64,000 bases of DNA from Mesoaciditoga sp. (lineage in GTDB: Bacteria; Thermotogota; Thermotogae; Mesoaciditogales; Mesoaciditogaceae), in contig WGFY01000071.1 of assembly GCA_015491995.1 (NCBI GenBank), positions 1-64,000 of the forward strand. Reading direction: 5' to 3'. Both the position numbers and the translations under genes were made by a program. Position 1 is the stretch's first letter; every line of letters begins with the position of its first letter. Below are positions 26,374 to 29,793 of the stretch, piece after piece. The notes under the pieces were generated by a model, which did no database searches, was not told the origin of the DNA, and saw nothing but the letters and a program-made list of their open reading frames with translations.

Positions 26374-27531
26374 ATGATATCGAAAAATTTAAAACTGTAC
26401 TCTTACACCGCATTTTTTTCGTTTGGATTTTTCGTAATGATCCTTCCAAGTGCCTTTCCAAGAGTGCTTTCGGATTTTTCTCTAAACTATTTGCATGGAG
26501 GCTATCTTTTGTCTCTTGGTACTTTAGGCTACATTGCAGGATCTCTTGCATGCGCGCTATTTGCTCACAAAGTGGGCCTCAGGTTCATCGCGATTTTGGG
26601 ACCTTTTTTTCTGATCGTCGGATCTCTTGGGTATGCGTTTAGCAAAGGGTTTTTAGAAGTTGTAGTGGCAGCTTTTACGACTAACATCGGAGCCGGTATG
26701 ATAGAAGTTGGAGTAGGATCCTTGATTGGGGATATGGCTAAAGAAAAAGCTTCGAGTTCGCTCAACCTTGTCAACTCGCTTTTTGCATTGGGAGCACTTT
26801 CAAGCCCCTTTGTCGTCTCGCTTTTTATGAGAGAAAATTTTGGATGGCGCGGAGTCTTTTTTGTAGAAGCTTTAATAGTGGTGTTTGCTCTTGTTTTCGC
26901 TTTTCGCATTGAGGTGCCGGATTTTGTTCCAAAAAAGGAATCACATTTCAAATTGTTCTTCAAACCTTCAATCATGTTGATAGATATCCTTATAATGGTG
27001 TACGTTGGATATGAAGTTGGCTATTCCGCCTGGATCAGCACGTTTTTGGTTCATGTTCACGGTATGAGCGTGGCGTTGGCAGCCGCAAGTTCATCAGTTT
27101 TTTGGATTGGAATGTTTTTCGGAAGGTATATGGCAAGTTTTGTAAGGATCGAAGATGAAAAATGGATTTTCATGATATCCATGTCTTCTCTCATATCCGT
27201 CTTGGCCTTTATGTTTTCGACCAATTTATACCTTACCGTGATTTTCATCTTTTTGAGCGGATTGTCTTTTGCAAGTACATATCCAACCATTCAGGCTATG
27301 TTGACCAAGCGTGTAAAAGGAAAGATTGGGAATCTTATGGGTGTGTTTGTGTTTTTCGTTGGAATAGGCGCGGTCATTTCCCAATGGTTGATTGGAAAGG
27401 TGGCAAATTCATCTGGTGTTTTCATCGGATTTGCCGTTGTGCCAACGCTCATCGTCTTAGAAATACTGTTATCACTTATCTTTTACAAAACCAACTTTCG
27501 AACGATAGATGTGAAGCAAGAACACTTCTGA
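26374..27531 (+). CDS. MFS transporter
   Basis: 385 aa, about 12 hydrophobic segments, MFS-type repeats (GYIAGSLACALFAHKVGLR; FFGRYMASF). Confidence 0.85.
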   Translation: MISKNLKLYSYTAFFSFGFFVMILPSAFPRVLSDFSLNYLHGGYLLSLGTLGYIAGSLACALFAHKVGLRFIAILGPFFLIVGSLGYAFSKGFLEVVVAAFTTNIGAGMIEVGVGSLIGDMAKEKASSSLNLVNSLFALGALSSPFVVSLFMRENFGWRGVFFVEALIVVFALVFAFRIEVPDFVPKKESHFKLFFKPSIMLIDILIMVYVGYEVGYSAWISTFLVHVHGMSVALAAASSSVFWIGMFFGRYMASFVRIEDEKWIFMISMSSLISVLAFMFSTNLYLTVIFIFLSGLSFASTYPTIQAMLTKRVKGKIGNLMGVFVFFVGIGAVISQWLIGKVANSSGVFIGFAVVPTLIVLEILLSLIFYKTNFRTIDVKQEHF

Positions 27532-27547
27532 GTGGGGAGGATTTAAA

Positions 27548-28342
27548 ATGCGCAAAAAAGATGTTGAGAATTTCAAAAAAGAGCGTGATTATTTGAACGA
27601 CATGGTGATGAAATATGCAAAAACGAACATCAAGAGATTTTACAATCTTGATTCGAGCGTTTACAAGGGCGGTACCCTTTCAAAAAAAACAAAAGAACTG
27701 TTAGGGCTGGTATCCTCACTTGTCTTAAGGTGTGACGATTGCGTGGAATATCACCTGATCACTTCTCATGAAGAGAACGCCAGCGATAGCGAAATAGAAG
27801 AAGCACTTTCCATAGGGCTTGTGGTTGGAGGTTCTATCGTGATCCCTCACCTAAGAAGAGCCTTTGAAATATGGGACGAATTGAGGTGTAAAGATTTCGA
27901 TTCACTTTTAAAGAAGATAGAAGCTGTGGTAAAAAAACCATCTAAAAGAGACGAAAAATTGCAATTCATATGCGGACTTTTGAGTGGAAAAATTGAACAT
28001 TACGATTGGGTCGGATTCTACATCTCAAACAATTCTAAAAGAGAACTCGTTTTGGGCCCGTTCGTCGGAGAAAAAACCGAACATGTAAAGATAAAATTCG
28101 GTGAAGGTATATGTGGACAAGCCGCAGAAAGACAAAAACTTTTTATCGTTCAAGATGTTTCCGAAGAAAAGAATTACCTTTCTTGCAGTCCTAAAGTAAG
28201 ATCGGAGATTGTGATGCCGATATTAAAGAATGATAAGATCGTTGGAGAGCTGGATATAGATTCTCACGAAATGAATACTTTTACAAGCAAAGATAAGGAT
28301 TTTCTTGAAAGAATTTGTAAAATGGTGGTTAAGATTTTTTAA
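27548..28342 (+). CDS. AhpD/carboxymuconolactone-decarboxylase-like domain fused to fRMsr-type GAF domain
   Basis: N-terminal LRCDDCVEYHLITSH (CxxCxxxH); C-terminal DWVGFYI..LVLGPFVG..GEGICGQAAE..YLSCSPKVRSEIVMPILKNDKIVGELDIDS. Confidence 0.85.
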   Translation: MRKKDVENFKKERDYLNDMVMKYAKTNIKRFYNLDSSVYKGGTLSKKTKELLGLVSSLVLRCDDCVEYHLITSHEENASDSEIEEALSIGLVVGGSIVIPHLRRAFEIWDELRCKDFDSLLKKIEAVVKKPSKRDEKLQFICGLLSGKIEHYDWVGFYISNNSKRELVLGPFVGEKTEHVKIKFGEGICGQAAERQKLFIVQDVSEEKNYLSCSPKVRSEIVMPILKNDKIVGELDIDSHEMNTFTSKDKDFLERICKMVVKIF

Positions 28343-28353
28343 GGGAGTTGAAC

Positions 28354-29793
28354 ATGTTGAGAAAAATTTTGATGTTGATTTCTTTGATTATTGTGGCTCT
28401 AACGCTGAGTGGATGCTTCTTTCCAATTTCTTCATTTCACACACTTTCCGGTTATGTGAGAGACTCTTTTGGGAATGGCGTTGAAGGTGTCAACATCTTG
28501 CTTTCGTATCCAAATGGGTATTGGAAGCTAAAGACGGATTCAAATGGTTACTGGTCAAAAAATGGATTAGCAGGAAATGTCACGATAACACCAACGGCTA
28601 GTGGATGGACCTTCAATCCAACAAGCACGACTGTTGTTGTAAATAAGAAAGTAGGAATTGATTTTTTGGGAAAACCGGCAACTTACACGATCTCTGGGTA
28701 TGTCAAAGACACTTTCGGAAAAAGTATTTCTGGCGTGACCATTCTGTTTGGGAAAAGCGTTTCTTGCGTCAAAACAAATGCTGAAGGCTTTTGGACAAAA
28801 GGGGGATTGAGTGGAGAAATAAATGTAAAACCCCAGAAGAGCGGCTGGCTCTTTACCCCATCAAATGAAATGGTAAACGGCATGAAAGATGATGTGAATT
28901 TCACTGGAACATTGGGAATTGGCGAGAAAACAATCATACCGTTGGGCAACACTCCCTCCGGAATAGCGATAAATGAAAAGGATGGAAGAATGTATATTTC
29001 CAATTCTTCCACCAATTTGATAAGTGTGTACAACGTGTATGGATATACTAAAATAAATGATATGGTGGTGGGAAATGGACCAGAAGGTATTTGCTATGAT
29101 CCAAACCACAAAAGGCTCTTTGTTGCCAATTCTGCCACCGATACGATAACCGTTTTAGACGCTTCAGACGATAAGACTCTTCAAACCGTTTTCATAGGTG
29201 GGCAACCACAGGGTATGGCCTTCAACATGAAAACTAACAAACTTTACGTGACGAATTCGTTCTACAACGCCGTTTGTATTTTAAGTGCATCTCCAACAAA
29301 CGTGATAGGCATAGTTCGAGTTGACAAAGGCCCAAAATCGGTGGCGGTTAATTCCGTCACAAATATGGTATACGTGACGAACCAATTGGGTGGAACTCTA
29401 AGTATCATAGATGGGGAGACAGGCGATGTTGTGGATGATATAAAAATTGGTGGGAAACCTTTAGGAGTTGGAGTCAACGATGAGACCAACATGGTGTACG
29501 TCGCGAACAACTCCGATAACACGGTAAGTGTGTTAAATGGTGGTACGGATAGCGTTGCCACGACGATAGAAGTCGGAAAAAACCCAAGCTATGTCTATGT
29601 AGATCCAACGAAAAACAGGATATACGTGACCAATTCCGGAGATGATACCGTGAGTGTTATAGATGGGTTAACAGACAAGGTGATCCAAAATATAAAAGTT
29701 GGAGCTGGGCCGACATGGATAACTGGAGATTCTAAAATGGGAACTGTTTACGTGTCTAACAGCACTGAAAAAACTGTAAGTGTCATTTACTGA
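28354..29793 (+). CDS. Lipoprotein with two carboxypeptidase-regulatory-like repeats and a YVTN beta-propeller
   Basis: Lipobox LTLSGC; tandem SGYVRDSFGNGVEGV / SGYVKDTFGKSISGV; repeated MVYVTNQLGGTLSIIDG-type units. Confidence 0.88.
   Translation: MLRKILMLISLIIVALTLSGCFFPISSFHTLSGYVRDSFGNGVEGVNILLSYPNGYWKLKTDSNGYWSKNGLAGNVTITPTASGWTFNPTSTTVVVNKKVGIDFLGKPATYTISGYVKDTFGKSISGVTILFGKSVSCVKTNAEGFWTKGGLSGEINVKPQKSGWLFTPSNEMVNGMKDDVNFTGTLGIGEKTIIPLGNTPSGIAINEKDGRMYISNSSTNLISVYNVYGYTKINDMVVGNGPEGICYDPNHKRLFVANSATDTITVLDASDDKTLQTVFIGGQPQGMAFNMKTNKLYVTNSFYNAVCILSASPTNVIGIVRVDKGPKSVAVNSVTNMVYVTNQLGGTLSIIDGETGDVVDDIKIGGKPLGVGVNDETNMVYVANNSDNTVSVLNGGTDSVATTIEVGKNPSYVYVDPTKNRIYVTNSGDDTVSVIDGLTDKVIQNIKVGAGPTWITGDSKMGTVYVSNSTEKTVSVIY

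Follow-up and report, generated by a model that had tools for sequence, protein, structure and literature searches.

A CMD/AhpD-like dithiol domain fused to a type II free methionine-R-sulfoxide reductase: a candidate built-in reductant in Thermotogota and the Caldisericia phylum

Ta0848 of Thermoplasma acidophilum (PDB 4mmn/4mn7) is a 149-aa, stand-alone free methionine-R-sulfoxide reductase (fRMsr) with a GAF fold and no resolving Cys. Two of its Cys are essential, Cys60 and Cys84, the latter being the nucleophile; no Cys60–Cys84 disulfide forms, a separate thiol has been proposed as the resolver, and the enzyme is active in vitro with thioredoxin (PMC6211008). In PilB of Neisseria (Trx-like domain–MsrA–MsrB), a thiol-disulfide domain lies N-terminal to the methionine sulfoxide reductase (Msr) domains and reduces the protein's own MsrB domain, providing intramolecular recycling of at least MsrB (PMC6210582). 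AhpD of Mycobacterium tuberculosis (partner of AhpC) and the AhpD-like CgAhp of Corynebacterium are electron donors to peroxidases: an AhpD-type CxxC relays electrons from Lpd or a lipoyl protein to a Cys-based antioxidant enzyme. We know of no case in which a member of the CMD/AhpD family serves a methionine sulfoxide reductase, and no CMD–fRMsr or AhpD–Msr fusion was found in the literature searched.

The protein described here joins these two families in one chain. It is encoded in a 64,000-nt stretch of DNA (the window) whose genome belongs to the family of the thermophilic, acidophilic Athalassotoga. Both of its domains are known; their combination is a new form of thiol-domain–Msr fusion. 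The features of the locus, all on the + strand, are as follows.

26374..27531, +: MFS transporter gene, ending 16 nt before the fusion gene
27534..27540, +: Shine-Dalgarno-like GGGGAGG, 7 nt 5' of the ATG (read directly)
27548..28342, +: CMD(AhpD-like)–fRMsr fusion gene, 264 aa, ATG start
27566..27889, +: CMD/AhpD-like domain, residues 7–114 (profile, phmmer and fold search)
27731..27754, +: redox motif C62-DD-C65-VEY-H69 (CDDCVEYH, residues 62–69), with E50 upstream
27785..27934, +: continuous predicted helix bridging both domains, residues 80–129 (AlphaFold2)
27929..28333, +: type II fRMsr-family GAF domain, residues 128–262
28082..28084, +: His179, where type I fRMsrs have the resolving Cys (invariant in 45 aligned rows)
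28112..28114, +: Cys189, equivalent to Ta0848 Cys60 (alignment)
28184..28186, +: Cys213, equivalent to the catalytic Cys84 of Ta0848 (alignment)
28354..29793, +: putative lipoprotein gene (YncE-like beta-propeller), starting 11 nt past the fusion stop

The N-terminal half scores above the curated profile cut-offs for the CMD/AhpD superfamily—Pfam CMD (PF02627; E 2e-11, 44.1 bits, cut-off 23) and NCBIfam TIGR00778 (28.6 bits, cut-off 27.8)—which bears out the AhpD-like domain that the earlier note had recognized from the CDDCVEYH motif. Its phmmer match is TM1620 of Thermotoga maritima (1vke, 1p8c; E 5e-35 to 6e-35), which shares the CMD domain and its CxxCxxxH site and is ~57–60% identical over the aligned part; unlike the CMD half of the fusion, TM1620 is a stand-alone chain. 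A literature search on the name TM1620 returned unrelated or passing mentions only. The complete E...CxxCxxxH redox site is present, with the Glu 12 residues ahead of the first Cys, and E50, C62, C65 and H69 are invariant in 52/52 aligned CMD rows. No peroxiredoxin is named among the immediate neighbours in the window or related loci, so an adjacent AhpC partner gene, the mark of AhpD proper, is absent there. TM1620-like CMDs also occur in Chloroflexi and others whose genomes gave no fRMsr match, and so the CMD must have other jobs as well.

The C-terminal half is covered by Pfam GAF/GAF_2, and carries every fRMsr motif that the earlier note listed (WVGFY, LVLGPF, GICG, YLSC...SEIVMP and LDIDS). 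By sequence, its strong PDB matches are all fRMsr-type chains, with sensor and PtsP GAFs many orders of magnitude weaker. By structure, Foldseek ranks 1–18 are likewise all fRMsr-type chains (4mmn, Ta0848: rmsd 0.9 A over 130 columns). Aligned with phmmer, Cys15, Cys60 and Cys84 of Ta0848 fall on C142, C189 and C213, and the GEKTxHV stretch is shared; two of the fRMsr Cys are therefore retained, as first proposed. The fusion differs from Ta0848 in carrying a CMD domain. H179, C189, C213, E220, D236 and D238 are invariant in 45/45 aligned type II rows; E220, D236 and D238 we take, from the Neisseria enzyme, to be the substrate-binding acids.

GAF domains are often sensors, and instead of being a reductase this one could in principle sense a ligand, such as Met-R-O or some other small molecule, and so regulate the CMD redox enzyme. 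One Thermotogota lineage (f10 g15), in which an fRMsr domain sits inside a longer GAF/GGDEF-like protein, speaks for such a role. We nevertheless regard it as improbable: all catalytic residues are kept and invariant, the nearest solved relatives are enzymes, and the CMD is not recognized as an output domain. A sensor-GAF assignment is also disfavoured by the rankings themselves, where every known fRMsr structure stands ahead of every sensor GAF.

The GAF domain is of type II: C189 and C213 are kept, and the resolving Cys is replaced by H179. The third Cys of type I enzymes (E. coli MsrC/YebR class), found in an xACxxI motif, is absent, with TEHVKI in its place; the seven type I control sequences read have Cys at the H179 position. 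The replacement of the upstream Cys was thus correctly noted before. The accompanying idea—that the fusion makes good a "lost" Cys—does not hold. Virtually every fRMsr read from Thermotogota and Thermoplasmatota has the type II pattern, and most of these have no CMD domain; on this sequence evidence the absent resolving Cys is a feature of the type II class, not a peculiarity of the fusion. Compensation for a recently lost Cys is accordingly rejected as the origin of the fusion.

An AlphaFold2 model (input: 88 window and locus sequences) has a mean pLDDT of 96.4 and a pTM of 0.85, and places one unbroken helix across the domain boundary. In the fold search against TM1620 the rmsd is 6–8 A, and the packing of the domains is therefore uncertain.

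The fusion was found in 11 genomes. Six are Thermotogota (G000, G002 and G005 from the window's family; G011, G017 and G023 from family f3), and five belong to the Caldisericia phylum (5/54 genomes of the phylum of L032). In these divergent lineages the CMD is always N-terminal. A frameshift, an assembly chimera or a chance artefact is ruled out by the recurrence of the in-frame fusion in all 11 genomes at 50–100% identity. An Acidobacteria contig (L041) ends within a likely fusion or pair. Elsewhere the two genes are unfused, same-strand neighbours: in G003 and G008, sister genomes of the window (~50 nt between domain ends), in the Thermoplasmatota G105, G107 and G131, and in a Zixibacteria locus (L039). 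Looser pairs occur in G195 and G215. In G106 and G140 the genes lying between CMD and fRMsr encode an 8-oxoguanine glycosylase and an LMW-phosphatase/ArsC-like protein, which rules out an intervening flavoprotein donor. Among sampled Thermoplasmatota with both genes, CMD and fRMsr lie within ~1.3 kb on the same strand in ~8/21, where ~0.016 would be expected by chance (a by-eye tally of the match table; the expectation ignores kinship). CMD linkage was seen in 0/7 type I fRMsrs. Separately, in most genomes of Thermotogota family f2 (L176, L177; G081, G031), an fRMsr and a TM1620-like CMD stand at a conserved spacing of 5–6 kb, in a region where a PLP-type decarboxylase and DNA polymerase I were read by eye.

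In the window, the fusion ORF follows a strong Shine-Dalgarno sequence. Given the short gaps to the genes on either side, the fusion gene is probably part of a short operon, and it likely shares a transcript with the MFS transporter. The MFS-then-fusion order is kept in related genomes, and the fusion-then-lipoprotein order in G002. A search for plasmid carriage found no covering match. In G011 (L180), the preceding gene is a MATE-like transporter (family read by eye) that overlaps the fusion gene start by 4 nt, in the position held by the MFS gene in the window. Transporter genes directly upstream, MFS in the window's family and MATE-like in L180, would fit a different substrate: another small sulfoxide, perhaps handled together with a co-transcribed MFS exporter. 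This seems highly improbable, since the fRMsr substrate-site pattern is kept, and since the transporter is missing from Caldisericia and most Thermoplasmatota contexts.

Elsewhere the setting is one of oxidative stress. In the Caldisericia group the gene order is Fur-Rbr-desulfoferrodoxin-ferritin-[fusion]-FprA-flavin reductase/rubredoxin, with desulfoferrodoxin and ferritin alongside rubrerythrin in L183. In Thermoplasmatota, an 8-oxoguanine glycosylase gene lies beside or between the CMD and fRMsr genes. These partners are oxidative-damage genes of anaerobes, whose antioxidant operons gain a further member in the fusion. The oxidative-stress role suggested earlier thus gains a concrete context (Fur, rubrerythrin, superoxide reductase, ferritin, flavodiiron and rubredoxin genes around the Caldisericia fusion); this context and the fRMsr family identity are well supported.

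Because they recur as a fusion or as adjacent genes in several unrelated microbes, CMD and fRMsr probably work together. We propose that the CMD CxxC is the built-in (or partner-chain) reductant of the fRMsr site, in a stress enzyme that reduces free Met-R-O, and give this a probability of roughly 0.55; electron transfer from one domain to the other has, in our estimate, about even odds or better. The fusion product would be a two-domain cytoplasmic antioxidant enzyme, working as follows: (i) the C-terminal type II fRMsr domain would reduce free L-methionine-R-sulfoxide; (ii) by homology with Ta0848, Cys213 would attack the sulfoxide and become a sulfenic acid; (iii) type II enzymes having no resolving Cys, an outside thiol would be needed to close the cycle; (iv) the C62/C65 dithiol of the AhpD-like domain, either of its own chain or of an adjacent one within an oligomer, would most likely reduce the oxidized Cys213; and (v) the CxxC would be re-reduced by cellular dithiols, for example lipoyl proteins/Lpd or thioredoxin/thioredoxin reductase.

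The proposal rests on four points: the recurrent fusion or adjacency, the need of type II enzymes for an outside thiol, AhpD chemistry, and the precedent of PilB. A separate thiol had been proposed as the physiological reductant of type II fRMsrs, and fusion and adjacency in several phyla name a candidate. The layout resembles that of PilB, but neither half is related to its counterpart in fold (Trx fold plus MsrA/B there, CMD plus GAF-type fRMsr here); PilB is also periplasmic and acts on proteins, unlike the fusion. AhpD–AhpC and CgAhp share the proposed relay, but they serve a peroxidase instead of an Msr, and their chains are separate. Several observations count against the CMD as reductant: the majority of type II fRMsrs read lack a nearby CMD partner, many Thermotogota with an fRMsr have no TM1620-like CMD whatever, the sister genome G006 keeps MFS–fRMsr and lacks the CMD gene, Ta0848 works with thioredoxin in vitro, and TM1620-like CMDs occur without fRMsr. 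More tentatively, the fusion may be a self-recycling free-Met-R-O reductase in which a dithiol of AhpD fold stands in for the resolving Cys as well as for thioredoxin: a dedicated AhpD-type reductant for type II fRMsrs, fused or encoded next door, and linked to NADH via lipoyl proteins and Lpd.

Alternatively, two independent antioxidants may have been joined for co-expression, with the CMD acting as a peroxidase or disulfide reductase with a partner of its own, the fRMsr recycled by thioredoxin, and shared regulation as the only link. As the main rival, this account is possible but less likely. It fits the adjacent genes in stress operons, which stand beside other, unrelated antioxidant proteins; TM1620-like CMDs and fRMsrs are each found alone; and Ta0848 accepts thioredoxin, while the window's genome encodes thioredoxin reductase. 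Fusions in divergent lineages, an N-terminal CMD in every one of them and the continuous predicted interdomain helix suggest more than co-expression, and the CMD is the only fused member among the operon genes seen. With Lpd (dihydrolipoamide dehydrogenase) also encoded in the genome, external reducing routes exist. MsrA and MsrB were not found in this genome (87.8% complete), so that at this completeness the fusion protein is its sole recognized thiol Msr.

Trees of the CMD and GAF halves are poorly resolved and differ from each other, and an AU test of all fused GAF halves as one clade gave p 0.09; these results are compatible with one origin of the fusion as well as with several. Most Thermotogota and Bacteroidota CMDs sit in a clade to which the linked CMDs do not belong; this suggests that a separate CMD lineage travels with fRMsr. 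For the window's family, the closest unfused relatives in the trees are an adjacent pair, as would be expected whether neighbouring genes fused or a fused gene split.

Other fRMsr architectures were also seen. In one MAG (L011/L184, G019:C15), a Cys-rich DUF1667 domain (PF07892, E 2e-30) is in frame with a type II fRMsr, possibly as a chimera. In most Thermotogota families, the type II fRMsr is fused to an unannotated N-terminal domain of ~165 aa (L012, L015, L021, L022 and others; alignment A3). This domain has no Pfam match above cut-off; its confidently predicted structure (pLDDT 91) has GAF-type chains as its best 50 PDB fold matches, which leaves it unnamed. In G022 (L224, 2303–4501) and other f10 g15/g36 genomes, the ~165-aa domain–fRMsr runs on into an apparent GAF–GGDEF in a frame of ~780 aa (the GGDEF part of the L224 protein named by eye, without a profile), hinting at a Met-O-linked diguanylate cyclase.
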